Assembly: GCF_000379625.1 (NCBI RefSeq)
Contig: NZ_KB903229.1
Span: 166,247-230,246 of the forward strand
Origin: Actinomycetospora chiangmaiensis DSM 45062
GTDB lineage: Bacteria > Actinomycetota > Actinomycetes > Mycobacteriales > Pseudonocardiaceae
DNA length: 64,000 nucleotides
Direction of reading: 5' to 3'
Within the stretch, counting starts at the first letter, position 1. Each line of letters opens with the position of its first letter. This document shows positions 12,935 to 27,854 of this stretch, in pieces. Below the pieces are notes generated by a model. The model saw nothing but the letters and a program-made list of their open reading frames with translations, searched no databases and was not told where the DNA came from. The translations under genes were made by a program, and so were the position numbers.

Positions 12935-13064
12935 GACGTGAGACGCACGCCCCAGCGACGGGTCGGGTCGCGGGGTGTGGCGGTGCACCCGATCGGCTAA
13001 TCCGGTCGGCGATGCTCGACACCCCGCGTCCACCGGATGCGGCCGATGGAGGACAGTGGAGGAT

Positions 13065-14195
13065 GTGACGGTGACGACGGGCGAGGTGATCGGCCGGGTC
13101 CGACGGATCGCGTCCGCCCGCACCACGCGCGTCCTCGTAGGGCTCCTCGTGGTCGCCGGACTCGTCACCGGGGGCGTCCTCATCCGGCCCACCATCGAGG
13201 CGGCCGGCGCGGCCCTCGGCGACGCCGACGTCATGTGGGTGTCGCTGGCCGTCGTCTGCGAGGCCGGCTCGATCCTGGCGTTCTCCCTGCTGCACCATCG
13301 GCTGCTGCGGGCGGCCGCGGTCCGCGTGCGGTTCCGCGCCGTCGTCATGGTCACCCTGGCCGCGAACGCGCTGCACCTGACGGTGCCGGGCGGTGCCGCC
13401 CTCTCGACCGCCTACACGTTCCGCAAGCGCCGCGCCTGGGGCGCGTCCGGCCCGGTCACGACGTGGACGATGGTCGCCGGTGGCGTCGCCGCGAGCCTGG
13501 CGCTGGCCGGGATCGCGGTCGGGTCGGCGCTGGTGGTCAACGGCCGGGCCACCACGCTCGGGCCACAGCTGCTCCAGCTCGCCGGGGTGGTCGCGCTCGG
13601 CGGGGTCATCGTCGTCGTCAGCCGCCGCCCCGGGTTCATCACCACGGCCGCCTCGGCGGGCCTGCGACTGGTCAACCGCGTGCGCCGGCGGCCGCGCGAG
13701 ACCGGGGTGGCGGAGCTCGTCACCCAGATCGAGAACCTGGCGCTCATCGAGCTCGACGGTCGCGGCCGCGTGGTCGTCGGGCTCTCCGCGCTGTCGAACT
13801 GGCTGCTCGACATCGCCTGCCTCGCGGCCTGCTGTGTCGCCGTCGGTGCGAACGGGATGACCATCTCGCTGGTCCTCGTCGCCTACGCCGCGGCCACCGC
13901 AGCCTCGAGCCTCGCGTTCCTGCCCGGCGGTCTCGGCCTCGTCGACGGTGCGCTGCTCGCGGCCCTCGTCGCGGGCGGCGTCCCCTCGCACCCCGCCCTC
14001 GCCGCGGTCCTGCTCTACCGGCTCGTCAGCTTCGTCGGCGTCGCGGCCGCGGGCTGGGGCGCCTGGCTGTGGGTGCAGACCCGTGGCAGCGTCGACGAGC
14101 GGCCCCTCGACGACCAGGTCGGTGACGACGGCGAGGTGCACACGCTGCCGTTCCCGTCCTCGCGGACCCGCGGCGACGTGGTGGGGCCCCGCTAG
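13065..14195 (+). CDS. Lysylphosphatidylglycerol synthase-like (UPF0104) membrane protein
   Basis: About 376 residues with about eight membrane helices, no soluble catalytic domain, and the LPG_synthase_TM pattern. There is a first helix VLVGLLVVAGLVTGGVLI, the conserved HLTVPGGAALSTAYTFR segment (PGG..S motif), and ASSLAFLPGGLGLVDGALLAALVAGG with LLYRLVSF. Such proteins are lipid flippase-like or linked to aminoacyl-phospholipids. The true substrate is not predictable. The GTG at 13065 or at 13071 follows GGAGG. The stop lies in a CTAG shared with the stop of the opposing Hsp70-like gene. Confidence 0.85.
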   Translation: MTVTTGEVIGRVRRIASARTTRVLVGLLVVAGLVTGGVLIRPTIEAAGAALGDADVMWVSLAVVCEAGSILAFSLLHHRLLRAAAVRVRFRAVVMVTLAANALHLTVPGGAALSTAYTFRKRRAWGASGPVTTWTMVAGGVAASLALAGIAVGSALVVNGRATTLGPQLLQLAGVVALGGVIVVVSRRPGFITTAASAGLRLVNRVRRRPRETGVAELVTQIENLALIELDGRGRVVVGLSALSNWLLDIACLAACCVAVGANGMTISLVLVAYAAATAASSLAFLPGGLGLVDGALLAALVAGGVPSHPALAAVLLYRLVSFVGVAAAGWGAWLWVQTRGSVDERPLDDQVGDDGEVHTLPFPSSRTRGDVVGPR

Positions 14196-16231
14196 TTCGA
14201 CGCCTGCCCGGAGGGCTCGCTCGCGGGCGTCGTCGCGACCTTCCTCGAGGTCGTCGTGGTGGTCGTGGTGGTCGTCGTCGTGGGGTGGTGCCCGCTCGAC
14301 GACCCGCCCCAGCTGCCGCCGGACGACGACGATCCCCCCGACCCCGAGCCGCCCGTGTTGCCCCCGGTGCCGGCGTCCACGACGCCGGCGGGCGCGGGGT
14401 TCCCGACGGCGGCCTCGGTCGGCGACGGCGTGACGGGCGGCGGGACGGACGTGCTGCTGGGTGGGGCCACGGTGGCCGACACCGTCGCGCTGCGGGCGTA
14501 GACCACCCCGCCCGTGGTGAGGGCCGCGACGAGGGCCACCGCGGCGGCCACCATCACCACCAGGCGCGTGCGCGACCGGACCGGCGTGGGTGGCAACTCG
14601 GCTCCGTACCCCGGATAGGCGCCGCCGGACGAGACCGGCGGACGGGCCGGGACGCCACCGACGTGGTGGCGTACCGTCCGGGTCTCGTCCTCCGTCGGGG
14701 CAGCCGGACCGGCACCCGCAGCGCCGTACTGCGCGGCGAACCGGCCCGACGGGTCGACCGGCAGGCGCCCCGACCGCGGTCCGGGGACGAAGCCGCCGGA
14801 GGGCGGTCCGATCACCGGACCACGGCCCGAGGGCGGCCCGAGGGCGGGGAGGCGGCCCGAGGGCGGACCGACGGCGGGCAGCGGGCCCGACGGCGGACCG
14901 GTCCGGACGACCCCGGGCGGCGTAGCCGGCGCCGCGGGCAGGGCCTGGCCGCGCAGGTCGAGCAGCCCCGAGTCGGTGTCCCCGCGGGCGGCGGCTCCGG
15001 CCGCGACGCCGGCCGCGGCGGCCGCAGCGGCCGCGCCGCGGGCGAGGGTGGAGGTCGCGGCGGCGGCGTCGGCCGCATTGGCGAGCGGCTCGACGGCCGC
15101 GCGTGACGTCGCGGCCCGGCGGACCGGCTCCGGGCGCGGCGCGATCGTCAGGACGGCACCGACCGCGATCGCGGTCTTCGGGTCGGTGTCGACCGCGACG
15201 GGGCGCCCGAGGTCCTCGGACACCATCTGGGCCACCAGCGGGATCCGCGAGGACCCGCCCACGAGCAGCACGGCCTGCAGGTCCTCGGGGGTGAGCGAGG
15301 CGGACTCGACGGTGCGGCGCAGCGCGGCGACGGTGTGGTCGAGCGAGGACCGGATCATCGCCTCGAACTCGTGGCGGGTGAGCCGCACGGTGGTGCGCAG
15401 CGACGGCAGCATCACCGGGATCGAGACCGCCGTGTCCGCGGAGAGCGCCTCCTTCGCCTCGACGCACTCCCGACGCAGCCGGGTCACCGCGGACACGACG
15501 TCCGGGTCCTCGGGGTCGATGTCGTCGAACGCGGCCCCGAGGCCGGTGAGGACGTGGGAGAACACCCGGTCGTCGAAGTCGACGCCCCCGAGCTGCTCGA
15601 TGCCCTCGGGACGGCCCGGGAGCTCGAAGCCGGCGGCGGTCCGGCGCACCACCGCGGAGTCGAACGTGCCGCCGCCGAGGTCGTAGACCGCCACCGTCCC
15701 GCCGACCTCGACCCGCTCCTTCGCCGCGTACGCGACCGCCGCCGCCTGCGGCTCGGGCAGGAAGGTGATCGAGGTCAGCCCCGCGTCGCGCAGCGCGCCC
15801 GCGAGCAGCTCCCGCTTGTGGTCCCCCCAGCTCGCCGGGTGCGTGATCGCGACGAGGTCGGCGGGACCGCCCTCCCGTGCCGCGACCTTGTCGACGACCC
15901 AGCGGGCCATCCGCGCGGCCAGGTCCTGGGCGGTGTGCACCGCGTCCCCGACGACCAGCGGCACGTCGTCGCCGACGCGGCGCTTGAACTGACGCACCAC
16001 GCGATCGGGCTCGGCGTGGGCCCGGCGTTCGGCGGCCTCACCGACCAGGAACGGCTCCGAGCCGTCCTGCTCCGGGGCGCCGAGGTACAGGACGGAAGCG
16101 ACCGAGGCGGACTGGCTGCCCAACGCCACGATCTCGGGCTCGCTCCAGTCGCGGCCGTGGGCACGGCTGAGCGCGGCCGCGGTGTAGGTGGTGCCCAGGT
16201 CGATGCCGAGCCTGTAGCGCGCGGTGTTCAC
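14192..16231 (-). CDS. Membrane-anchored Hsp70-like protein with long disordered tail
   Basis: A 679-residue protein. Residues 1 to about 375 are a complete actin-fold ATPase: RLGIDLGTTYTAAAL (phosphate 1), AVYDLGGGTFDSAVV (phosphate 2) and AVLLVGGSSRIPLVAQMV (adenosine region). Residues 376-550 are Ala-rich, then Pro/Gly-rich with repeated GPPSGR units. One membrane helix (VVMVAAAVALVAALTTGGVVYA, about 554-576) follows. A Ser/Thr/Gly-rich tail ends with eleven consecutive Thr. There is no canonical DnaK substrate-binding domain. The ATPase is probably cytoplasmic and the tail outside. It is divergent from the IniB-like operon, so joint function is plausible. The GTG at 16231 has GAGAGGA upstream. 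Confidence 0.88.
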   Translation of the reverse strand: MNTARYRLGIDLGTTYTAAALSRAHGRDWSEPEIVALGSQSASVASVLYLGAPEQDGSEPFLVGEAAERRAHAEPDRVVRQFKRRVGDDVPLVVGDAVHTAQDLAARMARWVVDKVAAREGGPADLVAITHPASWGDHKRELLAGALRDAGLTSITFLPEPQAAAVAYAAKERVEVGGTVAVYDLGGGTFDSAVVRRTAAGFELPGRPEGIEQLGGVDFDDRVFSHVLTGLGAAFDDIDPEDPDVVSAVTRLRRECVEAKEALSADTAVSIPVMLPSLRTTVRLTRHEFEAMIRSSLDHTVAALRRTVESASLTPEDLQAVLLVGGSSRIPLVAQMVSEDLGRPVAVDTDPKTAIAVGAVLTIAPRPEPVRRAATSRAAVEPLANAADAAAATSTLARGAAAAAAAAGVAAGAAARGDTDSGLLDLRGQALPAAPATPPGVVRTGPPSGPLPAVGPPSGRLPALGPPSGRGPVIGPPSGGFVPGPRSGRLPVDPSGRFAAQYGAAGAGPAAPTEDETRTVRHHVGGVPARPPVSSGGAYPGYGAELPPTPVRSRTRLVVMVAAAVALVAALTTGGVVYARSATVSATVAPPSSTSVPPPVTPSPTEAAVGNPAPAGVVDAGTGGNTGGSGSGGSSSSGGSWGGSSSGHHPTTTTTTTTTTTSRKVATTPASEPSGQASN

Positions 16232-16535
16232 GACGGCCGTCCTCTCTCGTGCGCCTGGATGCAGCGCGCCGAGTATCGCGGGCGCAGCGGGCACGGAGTG
16301 GCACACGACGAGGGTCTAGGGCCGATCCCCGCATCCATTCGGGTGACGATCCCCCTGTCACCCAACACCGGCGGTCACCAGACTCCGGAGTCGGTCCCCC
16401 TCGAGCGACGGAATCGCCCCGATGGCCCCCGGGCCGTCGCTTCCTAACGTTCTCCCCATCGCCGCACCGGCCGGACCGGGACGGCACGAACGACCCGCAC
16501 CGCACGCCTCGACGACATCACCAGGAGTGATTCCG
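16232..16535. promoter_or_regulatory. Divergent promoter region of the Hsp70-like gene and the IniB-like operon
   Basis: 304 bases without a gene. It holds an inverted repeat GGGTGAC-N9-GTCACCC (16341-16363) and a perfect 12-bp palindrome GACTCCGGAGTC (16381-16392), both about midway between the two starts. These are candidate operators, for example for the IniR-like regulator encoded at 25236-27854. No confident -35/-10 pair is assigned. AGGAG at 16523-16527 is the ribosome binding site of the next gene. Confidence 0.5.
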
Positions 16536-17588
16536 ATGACCTCTCCGACCGCCAACCCCGCCGGCGTCGACCTCTCCAGCGCCTGGGACCGGCTCGTCCA
16601 GTACCTGATGGGCCTCTCGCCGGAGGCGCAGGCCGACGCCCTGGCGCACCCCGGCGACACCCTCGACGCCGCCGGCCTCGGTGACGTCGACGCCCCCACG
16701 CTGAACCACGCCATCGTCAACTCGGGGAGCTTCAACCGCGAGTACAACATCGGCAACCAGAGCAACTCCGGCGAGTCCGGGCACGGCGCGGTCGCCTCGC
16801 CCCCGCCCCCGCCGGACTGCTCGACCCACCCCGGCGAGTCGCACCACGCCGCCGCCGAGCGGGTCATGAACTACTACATCAACAACACCTACAGCGAGGT
16901 CATCGACCAGTCCACCAACATCGGCGGCAGCAACTTCGGGACCATCGCGAACACCAACGTCCACGGCGACGGCAACCAGACCGTCGGGGGCGTCGGCAAC
17001 ACGGTCGGCGACCTGACCCACGGCGACGGCAACATCCACGGCGACGGCAACGTGGTGGGCGACCACAACGCGACCGGCGGCGGGACCGTGCTCGACCACA
17101 GCGCCGTCGGCGAGGGCAACACGGTCCTCGACCACAGCGACGGCAACGCGACCGGCGCCGGCTCGGTGGCCCTCGGCGGCGGCACGGTCGGCGGCAACCT
17201 CAACACCGGGGCCGGCGCGCAGGTCGGCGACGGCTCGGCCTTCGGTACCGGTTCGGCCGCCGGTGGCGGCCACGTGACCAACACCGGGGTGCAGGGCAAC
17301 GGCAACACCACCGGCTTCGGTGCGGGCTCGGTGAACAGCGGCACGCAGGACGCCTCCCACGGCGGCGCGATCAGCACCGGCTCGGGCTCCGCGTCGTCGG
17401 GTGACTTCGAGAATCACTCGACCCACGACTCGCACGACGACAACTCGACGCACGACACCCACGACCACCAGACCAACGACTCGAACAACGACAGCTCGAC
17501 CCACGACCACCAGACCAACAACTCGGACAACTCGGACGACCACTCCGCCCACACCGACACCCACGTCGACACGGGCATCCACCTCTGA
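16536..17588 (+). CDS. IniB-like protein with Gly/Asn repeat body and His/Asp-rich tail
   Basis: A 350-residue protein. Residues 10-65 resemble the IniB N-terminal domain (WDRLVQYLMGLSPEAQADALAHP, then AAGLGDVDAPTLNHAI). After a Pro run and the segment AERVMNYYINNTYSEV, residues about 120-285 are a Gly/Asn/Thr-rich body with irregular GDGN, GNT and GGGTV units. These could fold as a beta-solenoid or stay disordered. The last 60 residues are nearly all His, Asp, Ser, Thr and Asn (THDSHDDNSTHDTHDHQ). No signal peptide or membrane helix is seen. It has AGGAG eight bases before the ATG. It is the first gene of the iniBAC-like operon. Confidence 0.8.
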   Translation: MTSPTANPAGVDLSSAWDRLVQYLMGLSPEAQADALAHPGDTLDAAGLGDVDAPTLNHAIVNSGSFNREYNIGNQSNSGESGHGAVASPPPPPDCSTHPGESHHAAAERVMNYYINNTYSEVIDQSTNIGGSNFGTIANTNVHGDGNQTVGGVGNTVGDLTHGDGNIHGDGNVVGDHNATGGGTVLDHSAVGEGNTVLDHSDGNATGAGSVALGGGTVGGNLNTGAGAQVGDGSAFGTGSAAGGGHVTNTGVQGNGNTTGFGAGSVNSGTQDASHGGAISTGSGSASSGDFENHSTHDSHDDNSTHDTHDHQTNDSNNDSSTHDHQTNNSDNSDDHSAHTDTHVDTGIHL

Positions 17589-17595
17589 GTCGGTC

Positions 17596-17626
17596 GGCGG
17601 ACCCCGGAGCTCCTCCGGGGTCCGCC
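17596..17626 (+). terminator. Perfect 14-bp hairpin between two IniB-like genes
   Basis: GGCGGACCCCGGAG (17596-17609) pairs completely with CTCCGGGGTCCGCC (17613-17626) over a three-base loop. It lies 8 bases after the first IniB-like stop and 35 bases before the next ribosome binding site. It may act as a partial terminator or an mRNA-stabilising processing boundary. It has no T-run. Confidence 0.6.
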
Positions 17627-17675
17627 CCGTCCTGCCTGCACGTCCCCGCCCGACGCTCCGAGGAGGTGACCGCCG

Positions 17676-18470
17676 ATGACCGACGTCGCTCCGGGTGCCA
17701 GCCTGCTGGACTGGGTCACCGGCCTCGTCTCCGATCCGGCCACCCGGGCCCGCTTCGCCGCGGACCCCCACCGCGTGCTCGGGGAGGCCGGGCTGGCCGA
17801 CCTCGACCCGGCCGACCTCCACCATGCGATCCCGCTGGTGACCGACACCGTCGCCGCCCGGCTCGACGCCGTCGCCGACGGCTCGACCCCGATCCCCGGT
17901 CCGCTCGCCGGGGAGTCCGGACTCGAGGCGACGGTGCGCCAGCTCGGCGCCATCTCCGACCGCATCGTCCCGCTGTCCGAGGCGGACCCGGGGGTGCGCC
18001 ACGACGCGGTGCACGATCTCGATCACCCCGGCGCCCACGCCGGGCACGCGGTGCCGCACGACGTCCCCGACTGGTTCGACGACGCGCCGCACGACGGCAC
18101 GGGCGACCTCCGGGACTCCCACGACCTCGACGACCGGGCGCCCCACGCCTGGTCGGCCGGCTCCCACCACGCGCTCGTCGCGCCCGACCACGCACGGCCG
18201 GCCCCGGCCTTCGCGACCGGTCACGCCGGGCACCTCGGGGTGGTCGGGCCCGACCACCCCGACTCCGGCCCCGCCCCTGCCCATGACGACCCCTGGCACG
18301 TCGACCGGCCCGAGGACACCGCGCACGAGCCCCCGGACGAGGGCGACCACCACCTCGACGAGGACGCGCCGCACCACGACCACGGCGATCACGCCGGGCA
18401 CGTCGACGACACCGACCACGCACACCACCCCGACCACCCCGACCCGGGCGCCGCGCTCGGCGCGAGCTGA
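17676..18470 (+). CDS. IniB N-terminal domain protein with His/Asp-rich tail
   Basis: A 264-residue protein. Residues 8-60 are a clear IniB N-terminal domain: SLLDWVTGLVSDPATRARFAADP, LGEAGLADLDPADLHHAIPLV. A short linker (about 60-105) follows. The remaining 160 residues are low complexity and dominated by His, Asp, Ala and Pro (DAPHHDHGDHAGHVDDTDHAHHPDH and similar). Histidine content is extreme. Zinc, copper or nickel binding is possible, but this is inference. GAGGAGG lies about 9 bases before the ATG. It is followed 30 bases on by the next operon gene. Confidence 0.82.
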   Translation: MTDVAPGASLLDWVTGLVSDPATRARFAADPHRVLGEAGLADLDPADLHHAIPLVTDTVAARLDAVADGSTPIPGPLAGESGLEATVRQLGAISDRIVPLSEADPGVRHDAVHDLDHPGAHAGHAVPHDVPDWFDDAPHDGTGDLRDSHDLDDRAPHAWSAGSHHALVAPDHARPAPAFATGHAGHLGVVGPDHPDSGPAPAHDDPWHVDRPEDTAHEPPDEGDHHLDEDAPHHDHGDHAGHVDDTDHAHHPDHPDPGAALGAS

Positions 18471-18500: not shown

Positions 18501-19811
18501 GTGACCATCCCCGTCGAACCGACCGACACGTTGCCCGACCCGGGCACCGACGCCGGCTGGGTGGCCCTCGAACGCGAGGCCCACGCCCACGGCTACGTGA
18601 ACGCCCAGGCCTACGTGGCCGCCTACGAGCAGGGCGGGATGAACGTCGGGATCGCCGGCTACCAGCCCGGGAACGCCCATACCGGGTTCGGCCAGATCCA
18701 GGCCTATGAGCGGGCCGCCGGACAGTCGGGCGAGACCCTGCACGACTTCGCCGCGCAGCACACCCCGGAGGCGCTGGCGGCCGACCGCGGCGAACTCCCC
18801 GACCAGGACCCGGGCGGGCCGGGCTTCGACCGGCACGCGCTGCGCGACGAGGCCCACCTGCACGGCTACCGGTCGGTGGGCGACTACGTCCGGGCCTTCC
18901 AGCACGGCGACCTCGACACGTCGGGCGTCGTCGCGGGCACCCCCAACGGCTTCCGCCAGGTCGAGGCGCTCGCCCGGGCCGCCGACGGCCACGGGGAGGA
19001 CCCGGACCGCTACTTCCACGAGCACCGGCAGGATCACGACGGACACCACCCCGATCCCTCGGGCGGCGGCGTCACCGACGGCAACCCGCCGCTGCACGAC
19101 GAGGACTGGTGGAAGCAGCCCCAGTCGCAGGCCCAGGGCGACCCCGACCCCGGTCAGATCGACCACACCGCGGGTTATCCCGGTGCCTACGTCGGCCCCG
19201 TGACCGTGGGCCCCGACGGGACCCGCACCCTCCCGGACGGCAGCCACCTCGGGGGGGAGGGCGCCGACACCCTGCGCATCTACCCGAACGGGAACGTCCA
19301 GGACCCCAGCGGCCGCTACCTGGGCGACTACCACGGCGAGTGGCGACCGGGATCGGAGATCGATCCGTCGTCGAACCGGCCCGGCCTCGGAGCCACGGTC
19401 GGCCCGGATCACGGCATGGACGGCACCGACGCCGGCGCGGCGTCCGCCGGCGGACCGCCCGCGCAGCAGGCGTCCGGCGGCGACGGTCGGCTGGTGCACG
19501 AGACCGTCCACTTCGGTGGCGGTGACACGCCGCAGGCCACCGGGTCCGACCCGGGGTTCGGCGGCGGCGCCCACACGCACCCCGGGCAGGCCCACGGGCA
19601 GGCCGCCCCCGAGGACGCCGTGCGTCACGGTGACCCGGGCGGCGGGGCCGACGACACCGACCACGACCTCCACCACGACGTGCACCTCGAGCCGCCCCAC
19701 GGGTCGCCGGAGTCGGGCCACGAGTCGGACTCCCACGGCTCCGCGGGACACCACGACGACGGCGGGCACGAGAACAGCCACGACGCCGGCCTGGACCACC
19801 ACGTCGGATGA
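18501..19811 (+). CDS. Operon protein with two internal repeats and a His/Asp-rich tail
   Basis: A 436-residue protein of unrecognised family. Residues 24-88 and 114-176 are two copies of one module: EREAHAHGYVNAQAYVAAY...GFGQIQAYERAAG and LRDEAHLHGYRSVGDYVRAF...GFRQVEALARAADG, each ending near F/Y-H/A-E/Q-H. Residues about 232-285 look like a small beta domain (VTVGPDGTRTLPDG, YPNGNVQDPSGRYLG). The last 130 residues are Gly/His/Asp-rich like the two proteins upstream. GTG start with AGGAGG eight bases before. It lies between IniB-like and dynamin-like genes, so a structural role in the same complex is likely but unproven. Confidence 0.78.
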   Translation: MTIPVEPTDTLPDPGTDAGWVALEREAHAHGYVNAQAYVAAYEQGGMNVGIAGYQPGNAHTGFGQIQAYERAAGQSGETLHDFAAQHTPEALAADRGELPDQDPGGPGFDRHALRDEAHLHGYRSVGDYVRAFQHGDLDTSGVVAGTPNGFRQVEALARAADGHGEDPDRYFHEHRQDHDGHHPDPSGGGVTDGNPPLHDEDWWKQPQSQAQGDPDPGQIDHTAGYPGAYVGPVTVGPDGTRTLPDGSHLGGEGADTLRIYPNGNVQDPSGRYLGDYHGEWRPGSEIDPSSNRPGLGATVGPDHGMDGTDAGAASAGGPPAQQASGGDGRLVHETVHFGGGDTPQATGSDPGFGGGAHTHPGQAHGQAAPEDAVRHGDPGGGADDTDHDLHHDVHLEPPHGSPESGHESDSHGSAGHHDDGGHENSHDAGLDHHVG

Positions 19812-19843: not shown

Positions 19844-21670
19844 GTGACCTCACAGCCGGCACTGGACCTGCTCGACCTCGCGATGCAGGCCACCGCGGCC
19901 TACGGCAGGCCGGACCTCACGGCGCGCCTGACGGCGACCCGTGCCCGGGTCGCCGACCCGGACGTCCGGGTGCTCGTCGTCGGGGAGTTCAAGCAGGGCA
20001 AGAGCGCCCTGGTGAACGCCCTGGTGGCGGCCGACATCTGCCCGGTGGACGACGACATCTCGACCTCCGTGACGACGGTGGTGAAGTACACCGAGGGAGC
20101 GCCCTCCGTGACGGTGGTGCGGGAGCGCTCGGCGGCCGGCGACGGCGAGACCCGCGAGGAACGCACCGACGTGCCGCTCGAGGAGCTGCGCCGCTACGTC
20201 TCCGAGGCCGGCAACCCCGGCAACCGGGAGAACGTGAGCTACGTCGAGGTCACGGTGTCCCGGCGGGTGCTCGCGAGCGGTCTCGTCGTCGTCGACACGC
20301 CGGGCGTCGGCGGCCTCGGATCGGCCCACGGGCAGATGACGATGGGGGCGTTGCCGACCGCGGACGCCGTCCTGCTCGTCTCGGACGCCGCGCAGGAGTA
20401 CACCCAGCCCGAGATCCGGTTCCTGACCCAGGCGATGGCCCTCTGTCCCAACGTGGCCTGCGTCCTCACCAAGACCGACCTGTACCCGGAGTGGCGGCGG
20501 ATCGCCGAGCTCGACCGCGGACACCTGATGCGGGCGGGGGTGGCGGCCGAGCTGCTGCCGACGTCGTCGGTGCTGCGCCGCGCGGCCACGACGTCCAACG
20601 ACCCGGCCCTCAACGAGGAGTCCGGCTTCAAGTCCCTCGTGACCTTCCTGCGCGACCGGGTGTCGGCGCAGGCCGAGGTGCTCGACCGCCGCTCCGCGGC
20701 ACAGGACGTGATCTCCGCCGTCGAGCAGATGGCGCAGAAGATGCGGACCGAGCTCGAGGCCCAGAAGGACCCGGGCAACGCCGAGGAGCTGATCGCCGCG
20801 CTGGAGCGCGCGCAGGGGAGGGCGGAGGAGCTCAAGAAGCGGTCGGCGCGCTGGCAGACGACGCTGAACGACGGCTACGGCGACCTGCAGTCCGACATCG
20901 ACTACGACCTGCGCGACCGGATGCGCACACTGCAGAAGGAGGCCGAGGAACGGCTCGACGCGGAGGACCCGGCCGACATCTGGGACCAGTTCGCCGAGTG
21001 GGTCCACACCCAGGTCGCGGCGGCCGCGTCGACCAACTTCGTCTGGGCCAGCCAGCGCGCGCGGCATCTCGCCGGACAGGTCGCGGAGCACTTCACGGCG
21101 GGCGGGCAGGCCGTCCTGCCCGACATCGGCCGGATCGGGCCGTCCGGGCTCGGTGGCCACGTCAACCCGATGATCCGTCCGGACATGGAGCGCTACCGGC
21201 TCGGCGCGAAGCTCTTCACCGGCATGCGGGGCGGCTACAGCGGCATGCTGATGATCGGGATGATGACGAGCCTCGCCGGCATGTCGTTGATCAACCCGAT
21301 CTCCGGGGCCGGGCTGCTGCTCTTCGGCGGCAAGCAGATCAAGGACGAGAAGAACCGGCTGAAGGCCAAGCGGCGCAGCGACGCCAAGATGGCCGTGCGC
21401 AAGCACATCGACGACGTGACGTTCCAGGTCGGGAAGGACTCCCGGGACATGCTGCGCATGGTCCAGCGCACGTTGCGCGACCACTTCCAGGACCTCGCCC
21501 AGGAGCTGACGACCTCCATGTCCGAGTCGGTCGCCTCGGCCCAGGCCGCGGTGCGGACGGCCACGACCGACCGCGAGCAACGCGTGCGCGACCTCGAGGC
21601 CGAGCTCGGTCGGCTCGCGGCCGTCGCCGAGCAGGCGCAGGCCCTCGTCGCGAACGACCCCCGGCGCTGA
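19844..21670 (+). CDS. iniA: IniA-like bacterial dynamin GTPase
   Basis: A 608-residue dynamin-like protein. The GTPase domain has G1 GEFKQGKS (47-54), a Thr-rich switch (DISTSVTTVV), G3 DTPG (151-154) and G4 TKTD (209-212). A helical bundle follows: AEELIAALERAQGRAEELKK and later stretches, about 285-445. A hydrophobic segment near residues 465-497 (GMLMIGMMTSLAGMSLINP) would touch or insert in the membrane. A second helical region ends the protein. In mycobacteria IniA mediates GTP-dependent membrane fission and is induced by cell-wall inhibitors. GTG start. It is followed 26 bases later by the IniC-like gene. The symbol reflects homology, not proof. Confidence 0.85.
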   Translation: MTSQPALDLLDLAMQATAAYGRPDLTARLTATRARVADPDVRVLVVGEFKQGKSALVNALVAADICPVDDDISTSVTTVVKYTEGAPSVTVVRERSAAGDGETREERTDVPLEELRRYVSEAGNPGNRENVSYVEVTVSRRVLASGLVVVDTPGVGGLGSAHGQMTMGALPTADAVLLVSDAAQEYTQPEIRFLTQAMALCPNVACVLTKTDLYPEWRRIAELDRGHLMRAGVAAELLPTSSVLRRAATTSNDPALNEESGFKSLVTFLRDRVSAQAEVLDRRSAAQDVISAVEQMAQKMRTELEAQKDPGNAEELIAALERAQGRAEELKKRSARWQTTLNDGYGDLQSDIDYDLRDRMRTLQKEAEERLDAEDPADIWDQFAEWVHTQVAAAASTNFVWASQRARHLAGQVAEHFTAGGQAVLPDIGRIGPSGLGGHVNPMIRPDMERYRLGAKLFTGMRGGYSGMLMIGMMTSLAGMSLINPISGAGLLLFGGKQIKDEKNRLKAKRRSDAKMAVRKHIDDVTFQVGKDSRDMLRMVQRTLRDHFQDLAQELTTSMSESVASAQAAVRTATTDREQRVRDLEAELGRLAAVAEQAQALVANDPRR

Positions 21671-21696
21671 GCACCCCGACGACGAGGCAGGAGCCG

Positions 21697-23211
21697 ATGA
21701 CGACGACCGACACCTCCCGTCGCCCCGGGCTCGGCGCCCGCGCGCGCTCGTTGCTGCGCGCGACCCTCGACGAGTACTCCGACAGTCCGCAGGCGGCCGC
21801 CTGGCTGCGCCACCACCTCGAGCGGTTCGACGAGCCGCTGCGCCTCGCGATCGCCGGGAAGGTCAAGGCCGGCAAGTCCACCCTGCTCAACGCGCTCGTC
21901 GGCGAGGAGATCGCGGCGACCGACGCGGGGGAGTGCACGCGGGTCGTCACCTGGTACGCGGACGGTCCGACTCCCCGGATCGTGCTCCACCCGCGCGTCG
22001 GGGAGCCGCGCCAGCTCCGGACCCGGCGCGGTGAGCACGGCGGGCTGGTCGTCGACCTCGACGGGGCCGACCCCGAGACGGTCGACCGGCTGGTCGTCGA
22101 CTGGCCCTCGTCGGGGCTCCGGACCACGTCGCTCATCGACACCCCCGGGATCGCCTCCCTCACCGCCGACGCGGCGAGCCGGGCCGGCGCCTTCCTCACC
22201 CCCGACGAGGCCCCGAGCCAGGCGGACGCCGTGCTCTACCTGATGCGCCACCTGCACTCGGCGGACGCCCGGTTCCTCGAGTCGTTCCACGACCGCCACG
22301 TCGCTCGCGCGACCCCGGTCTCGACGGTGGCAGTCCTCTCCCGCGCCGACGAGATCGGTGTGGGGCGCCTCGACGCCGTCACCTCGGCGCAGCGGATCGC
22401 GGAGCGTTACCGCACCGACGAGAAGCTCTCCACGCTCTGCCAGACGGTCGTGGCGGTCGCGGGGCTCGTCGCGCTCACCGGCCGGACGCTGCGGCAGGAC
22501 GAGTTCCTCGCGCTGCGCGCGCTGGCGGCGCTCGACGGCGCGACGACCGACGCGCTGCTGCTCTCGGCCGATCGCTTCGTGACCCCACCGGACTCCCTGC
22601 GCGACCGCCTCCCCACCGACGTCGACGCAGCACGGCGGGCCGGCCTGCTCGCCCGCTTCGGGGTGTTCGGGGTGCGGCTCTCCCTCGCCCTCATCCGGTC
22701 GGAGGACGCGGACGCGAACCGCCTCGCGACCGAACTCGTGCGTCGCAGCGGGCTCGACGACCTGCGGGAGGTCCTCGACTCGCAGTTCTCCGAGCGGCGC
22801 GATCTGCTCAAGGCGCGGTCGGCCCTGCTGGCCGTCGAGCTGGTCCTCGCGCGGGAGCCGCGGCCCGCCGTGCGGGCGCTCGCCGTCGAGGTGGAGCGGG
22901 TGTTCGCGAGCGCCCACGAGTTCGCCGAGCTGCGCCTGCTCGCCGCGCTGCGGGCCCGGTCGGTCCGGCTGCCCACGGAGGCCCGCGACGAGGCCGAGCG
23001 GCTGGTGGGCGGCTCGGGCTCGCGCGCGGCGGTGCGTCTCGGGCTCGACCCGGACGCCGACGACGCGGCCTGCCGGGCGGCCGCCGTCGAGGCGCTCGGG
23101 CGGTGGCGGCGCCGGGGGTCGTCACCGCTCTCCGATCGCGCGACCGTCGATGCCTGCTCCGTGGTCATCCGGAGCTGCGAGGGCATGCTCGCGTCCCTCA
23201 CCCGGTCGTGA
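21697..23211 (+). CDS. iniC: IniC-like bacterial dynamin GTPase
   Basis: A 504-residue dynamin-family protein. G1 is GKVKAGKS (54-61), G3 DTPG (148-151), and G4 is SRAD (215-218) in place of the usual NKxD or TKxD, as is common in IniC-type proteins. The C-terminal half is helical and rich in Arg and Leu, without the hydrophobic membrane paddle seen in the partner. Paired dynamin-like proteins often act as heteromers, so it probably works with the upstream IniA-like protein. The ATG at 21697 is preceded by AGGCAGGAG. It is the last gene of the tight operon. The symbol is by homology and position. Confidence 0.82.
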   Translation: MTTTDTSRRPGLGARARSLLRATLDEYSDSPQAAAWLRHHLERFDEPLRLAIAGKVKAGKSTLLNALVGEEIAATDAGECTRVVTWYADGPTPRIVLHPRVGEPRQLRTRRGEHGGLVVDLDGADPETVDRLVVDWPSSGLRTTSLIDTPGIASLTADAASRAGAFLTPDEAPSQADAVLYLMRHLHSADARFLESFHDRHVARATPVSTVAVLSRADEIGVGRLDAVTSAQRIAERYRTDEKLSTLCQTVVAVAGLVALTGRTLRQDEFLALRALAALDGATTDALLLSADRFVTPPDSLRDRLPTDVDAARRAGLLARFGVFGVRLSLALIRSEDADANRLATELVRRSGLDDLREVLDSQFSERRDLLKARSALLAVELVLAREPRPAVRALAVEVERVFASAHEFAELRLLAALRARSVRLPTEARDEAERLVGGSGSRAAVRLGLDPDADDAACRAAAVEALGRWRRRGSSPLSDRATVDACSVVIRSCEGMLASLTRS

Positions 23212-23361: not shown

Positions 23362-24213
23362 GTGGGCTCGGCAGGCAGCGGATTGGCGGATCCGGATTTC
23401 GTGCGGCTCGGTGAGGCCCTGCAGCAGCGGCACCGGGTGCAGGGCCGGGTGCGGCGTACGGCCGTCACCGTGGCGTGCGCGGTCCCGGCGGTGCGCGAGC
23501 GGATGCCGGCCCTGGCCGACCTGCCGCAGCTGACGGTGACCTGCTCCGACACGGCGGCCGGCGACCGGATGGTCGCGAAGTACGACGGCGCCCGCTCCGG
23601 CGTCCCGCGGCGCCTCGCGGTGTCGGTGCTGACGCTGCCCGACTCGCTCGAGGACTACCTGCGCGGCCGCTCGAAGCAGGCCCTGCGCACCAACAGCCGC
23701 CGGGCGCGGGAAGCGGGCGTGACCTGCCGTCGGATGGGCCGCGTCGAGGCCGAGGTCCGCATCACGGCGTTGCTGCGGGCCCGGGACGAGGAGGAGCTGC
23801 TCCCGGGCGTGCGGGCGGACCTGCTCGACGGCGTGGTGCAGGCCTGGGTGGCCCGCGACGCCGACGACGCGACCGAGGTCATCGCCCTCACCTCCGTCGA
23901 CGGCGCCTTCGCGCGCCTCGACCTCATGCTCTCGGCGCCCGACCGCGAGGCCGGGCCCGCCCGCTACCTGCTCTCGTCCCACCTCGTCGGCGAGCTGATC
24001 CAGCGCGGCGTGCGCCACCTCGCCGTCGACACCGCGCTCTGGCTCGACGCCGGGCTGCGCCACTTCCAGCGCCTGCTCGGATTCGAGCCGACGACGCTGG
24101 AGTTCACCCGCGGCGGCGCCGGGGACGTCCCTCCCGACGACGGCCCGTTCCCCACCCCGCGGATCTCCTCCGGTCCGCTGCCGGTGCCGGCGGCGGTGGG
24201 CTCGGCCTCCTGA
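23362..24213 (+). CDS. FemAB/GNAT-like acyltransferase-fold protein
   Basis: A 283-residue protein. The middle segment SLEDYLRGRSKQALRTNSRRAREAGVTC (about 95-125) is the feature seen in FemAB-like and BioF2-like acetyltransferases. The end YLLSSHLVGELIQRGVRHLAVDT...LDAGLRHFQRLLGFEP has the GNAT C-terminal pattern. The first 60 residues are variable. GTG at 23362 follows GGAGG. It is separated from the IniC-like gene by 150 bases, so it may have its own promoter. Its location inside the locus suggests an envelope-related role; this is inference. Confidence 0.7.
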   Translation: MGSAGSGLADPDFVRLGEALQQRHRVQGRVRRTAVTVACAVPAVRERMPALADLPQLTVTCSDTAAGDRMVAKYDGARSGVPRRLAVSVLTLPDSLEDYLRGRSKQALRTNSRRAREAGVTCRRMGRVEAEVRITALLRARDEEELLPGVRADLLDGVVQAWVARDADDATEVIALTSVDGAFARLDLMLSAPDREAGPARYLLSSHLVGELIQRGVRHLAVDTALWLDAGLRHFQRLLGFEPTTLEFTRGGAGDVPPDDGPFPTPRISSGPLPVPAAVGSAS

Positions 24214-25235: not shown

Positions 25236-27854
25236 CTACCCCGGGCCGCCCACCAGCTCCCGCAACTGGGCGAACAGCTCGCCCCGGCTCGACGAACCGA
25301 GCCGCTGCCGGATGCGCGCGACATGGTGCTCGACGGTCTTGGCCGAGATGTAGAGCTGCGCACCGATCTGCTTGTGGGTGAGCCCGGCCAGCACGAGCCG
25401 CGCGACCTCGGCCTCCCGCTCCGAGAGCGCGACCTTCCCGGTGTCGCCGAGCAGCCCCGACGTCGGGATCGCCTCCGCGCCGTCGGGCGCCGGCCGTCCC
25501 GTGTCCGCCATCGAGCGGGCGCAGGCGAGCAGCGTGGCCATCACCCGGCGGTCCGGGGTACGGATGGCCGCCTCCCCGGCGAGCCGCGCGCCGTCCCAGG
25601 TCCAGCCCAGCCGGTGCAGGCCGCGGGCCGCGTGTTCCACGACGACCGGGTCCACGTCCCCGGCCAGCGCGGCCAGCCACGCCCGGGCCGCGGCGTCCAG
25701 CGCGGTGGCCAGCGGGAAGCGGTCCGCGAGGGAGGAGAGGACCTCCAGGTGCCGCTCGGCGTCGGGCACGTCCTCGGCGGTGACGGCGGCTGCGAGGCCG
25801 TACCAACTGGTCGCCACGCGCCACAGCGGCGGATCGCCCAGGTCGCACAGGAGGGCGTCGGCCGCCTCCCACGCGGACCGGATCGCGGCCCGGTCCCGCA
25901 GCCGGGCCGCCCCGACGGCGAGCTCGCCGAGCGGGAGCAGGACGAAGAGGTCGACCGGGTGTCGGACGAGTGCCTCCCGGGCCCGGCCCCACGCGGCGCG
26001 CAGGGCCGTCGAGTCACCGGTCCGTCGGGCGGCCCCCACCTCGATCGCCGCCGCCGGCAGCTCGTCGCGGGGTTCGAGCGCGAGCCGCGACCCCCGGGCG
26101 GCCGCGACCTGCTCCGTCAGCCCGGGGAGGTCCCCGCGCACCATCGCGACCCAGGCGCGCAACAGGTGGTGGCGGGGCGCCAGCGCCGGACCGCCCGGAC
26201 CGGTGTCGCACGCCCGCCGCAGCACCGAGTCGGCCACGTCGACCTCACCGGCGTGCAGGGCGACCAGGGCCGCCAGGGCCGAGGGCGAGTCGGGCAGGAG
26301 CACGCCGCCGCCGAGCGGCTCGACCAGCGACGCCGCCCGCGTCAGCTCGGACAGGGCCGTCGCGCCGGCACCGGGTTCCGGGCCCAGGGAGGTCAGGACG
26401 CCGCCCGCCGCGAGCGCGATCGCCGAGCGCACGGTGGTCGATCCGGGGCCGCTCCCGCTCGCGCGGTGGACCGACACCGCGACGTCGTGGTCGCCGGCCG
26501 CGACCAGCCCGGGGACGGCGAGGTCCTGCAGGGCGGGGACCTGCGCGAGCATCGTTGCCGCGGCGTGGCCCATGCCGCGGTGCGTCATCACGGTCGCGAC
26601 GACGGTGACCGCGCGGGCCCGTTCGCCCGGGTCCTCCCGGGTGGTGACGGGGTCGGCGAGGCGCAGGGCGGTGTCCAGGTCGCCCGAGAGCGCGGCCGCC
26701 TCGGCCCGTCGGAGCACGACCGACTCCGGCGCCGCGCCGGCGGCCACGGCGTCCGCGTACAACGCGCCCGCGAGGTGCGGGGCGGACGCGATCGCCTCGT
26801 CCCCGGCGGCGGTGAAGACCCGGGGCAGCTCGCCGCCGCGCAGGCCGGAGCCGAGCAGCCGACGGGCCGGACCCAGCACGGACGCGCCCCGGGCGAGGGC
26901 CTGCTCGGCGATCCGTCGCTCCAGGTCGAGCCGCTCGTCCGCCGCCCCCAGTCGGATCACCGTGCGCCCCGCCAGCGGGGGGACCTGCTCGGCGGGGGCG
27001 CCGAGCTCGTCGCCGGGCCCGCTCCCCGTCGGGAGGAGGAGCCCGGCGGCGCGGGCACGCTCGAGCAGGTCCTCGAGGGACGTCCGGTCGACGTCGAGGA
27101 CGTCCGCGAGCGCCGCCGGGACCCGCGGCGCGCCGACGGCGAGGGCCAGCAGCAGCCGCCGCGTCCCGACGTCGAGCCCGCCCACCTCGTGCCGGAGCAG
27201 GTCGAGCACGCCCGGGGGGACCTCCTGCGACCCGCGTTCGGCCGCCGCCGCGACCGCGCGGGGGCCGGCGTCGCGAATCTGGGTGACGAGACGGTCGACG
27301 ACGGCCGGAGAACCACCCGAGAGACGTCGGAGCGTGCCCGCCAGGCCCGGCGGGCACCGGGACCCGAGCAGCGCCGACGCCCGGTCGGCGGTCCCCTCCG
27401 GCGTCAGGGGCTCGAGCGTCACCGGGGCACGGTCCCGGCCGAGCGCGAGCCACAACGTCGACAGCGCCCGCGGGCAGGGCCACGGGCGGGCGGTGACGAC
27501 GAGCCGGACGTCGGGATCGTCGGCGACGTCGGTGAGTTCGGCGAGCGTGGCCTCGTCGAGGGTGTGCGCGTCGTCGACGAGCAGCAGCGCGTCCTCGTCG
27601 GACGGGAACGGCACGGTGTCGCCGGAGCGGATGCGCCGGGTGCTGATCCCGCGTCGTCGGGCCGAGCGGACGAGCGCCGAGATCAGGGCGCTCTTCCCCG
27701 CCCCGCCCGGCCCGACGACGGCGGCCGCGAGCGGCGCGCCGGGGTCGGCGCGGTGGGCCGCCAGCAGCGCCACCGCACCCGGCAGACCCGCGACCATCGG
27801 GTCGCGGGCCGCCTCGACCTCGTCGCCCCCCGCGGCTCGCAGCCGCCCCGCCAT
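25236..27854 (-). CDS. Large P-loop/LuxR-type regulator, IniR-like
   Basis: An 872-residue regulator. Near the N-terminus is a STAND-type ATPase with Walker A GPGGAGKS (48-55) and Walker B LLLVDDAHTLD (91-100). A long Ala/Leu-rich helical repeat section follows (about 330-790). The C-terminal LuxR helix-turn-helix reads LSEREAEVARLVLAGLTHKQ, then KTVEHHVARIRQRLG (about 805-865). Architecture and HTH resemble M. tuberculosis IniR (Rv0339c), which controls iniBAC next to it. Here it lies 2 kb beyond the dynamin genes and on the other strand. IniR identity is inference. It could be a generic LuxR/MalT-type activator. Confidence 0.83.
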   Translation of the reverse strand: MAGRLRAAGGDEVEAARDPMVAGLPGAVALLAAHRADPGAPLAAAVVGPGGAGKSALISALVRSARRRGISTRRIRSGDTVPFPSDEDALLLVDDAHTLDEATLAELTDVADDPDVRLVVTARPWPCPRALSTLWLALGRDRAPVTLEPLTPEGTADRASALLGSRCPPGLAGTLRRLSGGSPAVVDRLVTQIRDAGPRAVAAAAERGSQEVPPGVLDLLRHEVGGLDVGTRRLLLALAVGAPRVPAALADVLDVDRTSLEDLLERARAAGLLLPTGSGPGDELGAPAEQVPPLAGRTVIRLGAADERLDLERRIAEQALARGASVLGPARRLLGSGLRGGELPRVFTAAGDEAIASAPHLAGALYADAVAAGAAPESVVLRRAEAAALSGDLDTALRLADPVTTREDPGERARAVTVVATVMTHRGMGHAAATMLAQVPALQDLAVPGLVAAGDHDVAVSVHRASGSGPGSTTVRSAIALAAGGVLTSLGPEPGAGATALSELTRAASLVEPLGGGVLLPDSPSALAALVALHAGEVDVADSVLRRACDTGPGGPALAPRHHLLRAWVAMVRGDLPGLTEQVAAARGSRLALEPRDELPAAAIEVGAARRTGDSTALRAAWGRAREALVRHPVDLFVLLPLGELAVGAARLRDRAAIRSAWEAADALLCDLGDPPLWRVATSWYGLAAAVTAEDVPDAERHLEVLSSLADRFPLATALDAAARAWLAALAGDVDPVVVEHAARGLHRLGWTWDGARLAGEAAIRTPDRRVMATLLACARSMADTGRPAPDGAEAIPTSGLLGDTGKVALSEREAEVARLVLAGLTHKQIGAQLYISAKTVEHHVARIRQRLGSSSRGELFAQLRELVGGPG

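Follow-up and report, generated by a model that had tools for sequence, protein, structure and literature searches.

A putative membrane-anchored Hsp70-type ATPase without substrate-binding domain in the Ini loci of Actinomycetospora chiangmaiensis and related actinomycetes

Domain architecture of the Hsp70-TM protein

The DNA analysed here (the window) is a stretch of 64,000 nucleotides from Actinomycetospora chiangmaiensis DSM 45062 (contig NZ_KB903229.1). It carries on its minus strand a gene (14192-16231) for a protein of 679 amino acids, in the following designated as Hsp70-TM, that comprises an Hsp70-type ATPase, a single predicted membrane helix and a tail rich in Thr, Ser and Gly. The gene has a GTG start at 16231, within a longer open reading frame that extends to 16306, and is divergent from an iniB-iniA-iniC series with a probable start at 16536.

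Residues 1 to ~370 (15122-16231, minus strand) represent a nucleotide-binding domain (NBD). The Pfam HSP70 model (PF00012) matches with 160.7 bits (cut-off 20.6) and the match stops at residue 361. AlphaFold2 modelled this part with confidence values (pLDDT) mostly above 90, and the NBD model aligns to DnaK (4b9q_A) with a Z score of 39.0 and a root-mean-square deviation of 2.6 Å over 349 residues. The top Foldseek match was 4ani_C (E 7.2e-29), and the alignment to the best solved relative is confined to residues 8-362. By the PF00012 match and the structure match of its NBD the protein belongs to the Hsp70 superfamily. All six positions D8, K70, E171, D194, T199 and D201, which we take to be the catalytic ones in the numbering of E. 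coli DnaK, are present. An intact nucleotide-binding fold and the lack of a DnaK substrate domain had been noted in a preliminary description made from the DNA letters and reading frames, and both statements are confirmed by these data.

At the place of the substrate-binding domain of DnaK, the protein has a disordered linker (residues 371-553; 14573-15121, minus strand) with GPPSG-type repeats. GPPSGR repeats had been described; the shorter GPPSG is present four times, the exact GPPSGR only twice. An LLLDVTPL-type interdomain linker of DnaK was not found in the protein sequence. The linker is followed by a predicted membrane helix (residues 554-582; 14486-14572, minus strand) with block means of pLDDT of 65-84 and a hydropathy maximum of 2.28 (Kyte-Doolittle) at residues 559-577. 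Three Lys/Arg residues are present in the 12 residues before this peak and one in the 12 residues after it. Hydropathy, positive-inside charge and the AlphaFold2 helix concur in a predicted single pass with the NBD inside and the tail outside the membrane. The predicted outer tail (residues 583-679; 14195-14485, minus strand; assigned from hydropathy and AlphaFold2) is disordered and rich in T/S/G/P/A. Linker and tail have pLDDT values mostly below 50, and so has most of the protein from residue 393 onward apart from the helix. The eleven consecutive Thr codons that were thought to end the tail are real (residues 651-661; 14249-14281, minus strand; mixed ACC and ACG) but not terminal, as 18 further residues follow.

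Hsp70-TM thus shares with DnaK and other Hsp70 proteins (PF00012, TIGR02350) the NBD fold and the catalytic residues, but has a membrane helix and a tail instead of the substrate-binding domain and the interdomain linker. The DnaK equivalog model TIGR02350 scored only 143 bits (cut-off 822.55). Identity as a DnaK-type chaperone can be ruled out because the substrate-binding domain and the lid are missing, in agreement with the earlier suggestion that the protein is not a folding chaperone of this type. The Rv3446c family (TIGR03931), which is associated with type VII secretion systems (T7SS), has a member in the same genome (L013, 9232-11100; 62.8 bits for the TIGR03931 domain, cut-off 47.6; L numbers designate loci) in which an Hsp70 domain is likewise joined to a hydrophobic C-terminal helix and an outer part, but which is located beside WXG100-like and EccC-like genes as judged from their sequences. 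TIGR03931 was absent from the 14 families listed for Hsp70-TM at E values up to 0.1, and membership in this family is ruled out by the lack of the match that L013 shows. Some receptor Ser/Thr kinases, such as PknD, carry an outer beta-propeller. They resemble the predicted layout of Hsp70-TM in having an enzyme inside, one helix and a domain outside, but contain a kinase in place of the Hsp70 ATPase, and the tail of the window protein is disordered. In L142 (5157-7619) an Hsp70 domain and a membrane helix are followed by a Vgb-like beta-propeller, and the outer part of these proteins therefore looks replaceable.

Recurrence of Hsp70 genes in ini loci

Two sets of loci were compared with the window. 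Of the 423 loci confirmed in a search with an IniA alignment, in which Hsp70 was not used as bait, the best 80 were taken, mostly from Pseudonocardiales (80-locus set). The other set was drawn from the 55 IniA places outside the own genome that were found in a sample of 296 genomes of the class; it comprises 40 of them, those with the weakest matches (n = 15; E values of 2.5e-51 or weaker) having been left out (40-locus set). Co-occurrence was counted in loci that extend 6 kb or more to both sides of iniA (n = 83; 49 of the 80-locus set, 31 of the 40-locus set and three from the own genome); 31 of the 80 and nine of the 40 loci had less than 6 kb on one side and were left out. At an E value of 0.001 the IniR model matched 8 of 14 control genomes, as compared to none of 14 at 1e-60, and only strong IniR matches were therefore used.

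An Hsp70 gene is present in all 49 full loci of the 80-locus set and in 26 of the 31 full loci of the 40-locus set. Both Hsp70 and IniR are encoded in 73 of the 83 full loci, Hsp70 alone in five, neither of them in five and IniR alone in none, so that Hsp70 accompanies IniR in 73/73 full IniR-bearing loci (Fisher p 8.7e-6, a guide only as kinship is ignored). When the 80-locus set is taken as a whole, 66 loci have an Hsp70 match, and 13 of the 14 others extend less than 3.4 kb upstream of iniA. In the 296 class genomes an IniA-like match (E 1e-20) was found in 51 and an IniR match (E 1e-60) in 27, all of which are among the 51.

The Hsp70 gene is divergent from iniB or iniA in 62 of 70 cases (80-locus set), 21 of 40 cases (40-locus set) and in all three own loci. 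In 18/70, 17/40 and 2/3 cases, respectively, iniR follows it in the same orientation at a distance of up to 1.5 kb. The nearest relatives of the window locus among the best 80 of the 423 loci are those of other Actinomycetospora genomes (L020-L022), whose IniA proteins are 70-79% identical. In a genus that we infer to be Mycobacterium-like, since IniR passes the curated cut-off of NF038181 in 78 of its 118 genomes, the matches listed place Hsp70 immediately upstream of IniR on the same strand in 53 of 81 IniR-bearing genomes and ~7-10 kb from IniR in 12 further ones.

Seven Hsp70 matches are present in the own genome: three Hsp70-TM proteins with tails, the DnaK-like L011 and L012, the T7SS-associated L013, and L010. 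The three IniA genes and the three strong IniR-like genes of this genome (E 1e-90 or better; next best 1e-9) coincide with the three Hsp70-TM loci (the window, L008 and L009), each of which holds genes for Hsp70-TM, IniB, IniA, IniC and an IniR-like protein. The Hsp70 and IniR-like genes of L008 overlap by 4 bases. In a tree of the NBDs the ini-linked Hsp70s were separated from the two DnaKs and fell into one group with the tail-anchored copies and those of T7SS; the deep branches are poorly supported, however, and the tree does not establish the ini-linked proteins as monophyletic.

Conservation of the helix, the tail and the ATPase site

The architecture was evaluated for complete relatives, leaving out proteins cut at the 3' side (13 in the 80-locus and one in the 40-locus set), short NBD hits (three and one) and proteins with a DnaK linker. 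A hydrophobic peak of at least 1.5 downstream of the ATPase domain, followed by a tail, was detected in 52 of 53 proteins of the 80-locus set, 31 of 38 of the 40-locus set and all three own proteins. More Lys/Arg residues precede than follow the peak in 51 of the 52 peak-bearing proteins of the 80-locus set. The single membrane helix near residue 554 and the orientation with the ATPase inside and the tail outside, both anticipated in the preliminary description, are thus supported at the level of prediction and belong to a conserved layout. The tails of the complete proteins of the 80-locus set are 36-271 residues long, with a median T/S/G/P/A content of 72%. Where the tail of a relative could be read, its longest Thr run has between 1 and 10 residues, and this variation rules out a conserved poly-Thr signal. 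The residues of the ATPase site are kept in most of the 61 copies compared, mostly from Pseudonocardiales (K70 in 52, E171 in 53, T199 in 54 and D201 in 50).

Ini genes of the window and a promoter-like element

The plus strand downstream of the divergent region encodes two IniB-like proteins, of which the first (16536-17588; reading frame from 16422, start at 16536 inferred) gives a weak IniB_NTERM match (16.9 bits, cut-off 40) and the second (17676-18470) passes the cut-off of this model (NF038175) with 60.9 bits. The latter protein also has weak matches to RiPP (ribosomally synthesised and post-translationally modified peptide) precursors of the NHLP type (TIGR04509, E 0.024; NF038399, E 0.083), possibly by chance. 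An unassigned open reading frame for a His/Asp-rich protein (18501-19811, plus strand) separates iniB from iniA. IniA itself, a dynamin-like GTPase (19844-21670, plus strand), matches the M. smegmatis IniA structure 6j72 with an E value of 8.3e-136. A second dynamin-like GTPase (21676-23211, plus strand; Dynamin_N 42.5 bits, cut-off 27) gives a weak match to the IniA structure (E 2.3e-5) and is assigned to IniC by its position. An ATPase/LuxR-type regulator similar to IniR is encoded on the minus strand (25236-27854); it matches nearly the full model NF038181 with 405 bits, below the curated equivalog cut-off of 750 bits. The cluster resembles the isoniazid-inducible IniB/IniA/IniC/IniR system for envelope stress known from mycobacteria in having IniA, a second dynamin, an IniB_NTERM protein and an IniR-like regulator, but differs from it by the inclusion of Hsp70-TM, by more than one IniB-like gene and by an IniR-like protein below the curated cut-off. 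On its other side the Hsp70-TM gene is met by a converging gene for a lysylphosphatidylglycerol-synthase-like membrane protein (12975-14195; 4-base overlap). A gene at 23362-24213 has no Pfam or NCBIfam match and was found, among the 80 IniA loci, only in Actinomycetospora (L020-L022).

The region between the divergent Hsp70 and iniB genes contains a promoter-like element, CCGATGGC-N16-CCTAACGTT (16419-16451, plus strand). With spacers of 11-20 nucleotides, CCGATGGC-N-CCTAACGTT occurs twice in the whole own genome (reversed control: 0), in the window and in L009, each time between the Hsp70-TM gene and the iniB gene, and L008 has a more diverged version. A looser form, GATGG-N12-22-[CT]C[CT]TAA, was found 21 times in 123 loci as compared to six times in one shuffle of the same DNA. 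Twenty of these 21 copies (19 loci) are located upstream of, and face, iniB or iniA, and the spacer is exactly 16 nucleotides in 16 of the 20. Of 81 intergenic regions, 39 contain ATCCCCTA and 35 contain CCGATGGC, as compared to 0.1 and 1.4, respectively, in shuffles, with kinship not corrected. Scans for sigma-70 promoters and terminators over 14000-17800 gave no match. As the element faces iniB, it argues for a common control of ini operons and not directly for one of the Hsp70 gene.

Proposed function and alternative explanations

The domain layout, the recurrent neighbourhood and, in part of the loci, the conserved promoter-like element before iniB are established as far as sequence comparison goes. 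What is new is a putatively membrane-anchored Hsp70 without substrate-binding domain as a regular part of Ini modules. We propose that the window gene product is a membrane-anchored Hsp70-fold ATPase and a regular component of the Ini module that serves as a transmembrane switch or anchor and not as a folding chaperone; we assign to this reading a probability of about 0.5. The Hsp70 ATPase domain would reside in the cytosol, the single helix would cross the membrane and the tail would lie within the cell wall, where it may sense or report the state of the wall or be anchored to it. The nucleotide state of the inner domain could then gate a cytosolic partner, either IniR or the IniA/IniC dynamin assembly on the membrane. 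The frequent arrangement of Hsp70 and iniR on the same strand favours IniR as the partner, while loci with Hsp70 and dynamins but without IniR favour the dynamins. In published work, IniA was found to attach to membranes and to deform and cut them with GTP (PMC6715688), and IniR was found to drive iniBAC upon envelope stress with trehalose as a signal (PMC5760070). A signal or force transducer across the membrane had been suggested before; the underlying observation is confirmed and this interpretation is partly supported, and membership in the Ini envelope-stress module now gives the transducer idea a concrete system.

In its most specific form, the Hsp70-fold ATPase would be a single-pass transmembrane receptor in which wall damage at the outer tail (in one relative, the outer propeller) switches the inner domain and thereby controls IniR and IniA/IniC, a possibility that we put forward only tentatively. 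If true, this would define a class of signal transducers that are neither sensor kinases nor anti-sigma factors, and would supply the upstream part that the Ini response has lacked. In mycobacteria, front-line drugs against the cell wall induce the Ini system, and Hsp70-TM is a testable candidate for the link from wall damage to IniR and the dynamins. More generally, it would be an example of the reuse of Hsp70 domains outside protein folding. A probably membrane-spanning ATPase that is conserved in the ini locus and present in many Mycobacterium-like genomes has been almost overlooked: with the terms used, the sole mention of an ini-linked Hsp70 in the open-licence literature is a passing 'dnaK-like gene' of M. 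smegmatis (PMC5760070), and the words 'dnaK' and 'Hsp70' do not appear in the main text, as far as accessible, of PMC13413693 and PMC6715688.

Several observations weigh against a general function as a transmembrane switch or anchor. In the accessible part of the study of Boot et al. the dnaK-like gene beside iniR is named for M. smegmatis only, whereas IniR was shown to work in M. marinum (PMC5760070); Hsp70-TM is thus probably not indispensable for IniR signalling. Five full loci have iniA with neither Hsp70 nor IniR. The Mycobacterium-like copies have degenerate ATPase sites (K70 to V, E171 to D, T199 to G, in a comparison of trimmed matches that did not cover the N-terminal motif), and so has the own paralogue in L009 (K70 to S, T199 and D201 to R), so that hydrolysis cannot be essential everywhere. 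The tails are alike in composition and not in sequence, which makes binding of a specific ligand doubtful. A stricter threshold leaves exactly one hydrophobic stretch in 42 proteins of the 80-locus set and two or more in six; two or more are also present in four proteins of the 40-locus set. Seven proteins of the latter set have no peak: L137 and L158 lack a helix, L133 is borderline at 1.45, and the remaining four, in L167 and L168, are of the propeller type. A peak was counted for L169 but is probably located inside its propeller.

In an alternative reading the protein would be an effector scaffold and not a sensor: the Hsp70 domain and the linker would keep IniB and both dynamins attached to the membrane, the tail would tie the assembly to the wall, and the ATP state would only regulate assembly. 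The long, repetitive and disordered linkers and tails and the degenerate ATPase sites of one large group, the Mycobacterium-like copies, are in line with such a role, as are five full loci (L094, L155, L167, L168 and L169) in which Hsp70 is accompanied by IniA/IniC and IniR was not detected. However, L167-L169 contain distant dynamins and Hsp70s with WD40 or PQQ propellers, which may be unrelated neighbours. Two further points speak against a scaffold: every full IniR locus carries Hsp70, and iniR often lies just downstream of it on the same strand, with overlapping genes in L008 and, by match position, in L138. We regard the scaffold as conceivable but doubtful.

A specialised chaperone or co-chaperone that recruits DnaK, or that assists IniB or the dynamins in folding or disassembly at the membrane, could be deduced from the true Hsp70 fold, from the retained catalytic residues of the window protein and from dnaK genes ~4-8 kb from iniA in six loci of the 40-locus set. 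It is unlikely, as both the substrate-binding domain and the DnaK interdomain linker are missing and R167, presumably the Arg of DnaK that contacts the J-domain, is more often Thr than Arg (36 against 4 of the 61 relatives of the 80-locus set; 13 against 8 of the 39 relatives of the 40-locus set). Finally, Hsp70-TM might be a neighbour without functional link that is carried along with the locus. Conserved order alone is no proof of function, the sampled loci are related, and absences do occur: L041 of the 80-locus set has no Hsp70 across ~9 kb upstream of iniA, and for 16 of the 81 IniR-bearing genomes of the Mycobacterium-like genus the matches listed include none within 15 kb, in several cases at contig ends. 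Such absences speak against our proposal, too. Yet the presence of Hsp70 in all full loci of the 80-locus set and in 26 of 31 of the 40-locus set, its retention despite shifts in gene order and orientation, and the three loci in one genome make a mere neighbour very improbable.

Additional Hsp70 copies and IniR variants

The six loci with a dnaK gene near iniA are L138, L139, L141, L147, L149 and L150; the DnaK-type gene has the interdomain linker in each of them, and an Hsp70-TM gene is also present in five (not in L139). Among the Mycobacterium-like loci, a second Hsp70-TM gene follows iniR in L149 (17561-19153), L150, L152, L153 and L154, and iniC in L143 and L148. Actinomycetospora termitidis has a tandem pair of Hsp70-TM genes (L021, 3032-6648), with one tail of just 36 residues. 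The Hsp70 domains fused to beta-propellers in L167, L168 and L169 are located near distant dynamin pairs; of the four such proteins in L167 and L168, Pfam confirms the propeller for L167 (WD40) and L168 1709-4036 (PQQ), the other two being read from sequence only. L010 of the own genome (9151-10677) encodes an Hsp70-like protein of the tail-anchored type that terminates in its membrane helix, and its contig has no IniA match.

IniR variants that lack the N-terminal ATPase half and retain the rest with the DNA-binding part are encoded in L008 (5630-7177), L009 and the Lentzea loci. With 11 genes excluded for their position at the edge of a contig, IniR without ATPase domain was found in 13 of 34 unambiguous operonic cases, with three further operonic ones intermediate, as compared to 8 of 51 non-operonic cases. 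A loss of the ATPase domain from those IniR proteins that have Hsp70 next to them in the operon was considered but dropped as too weak, since 10 of the 13 cases came from Lentzea.

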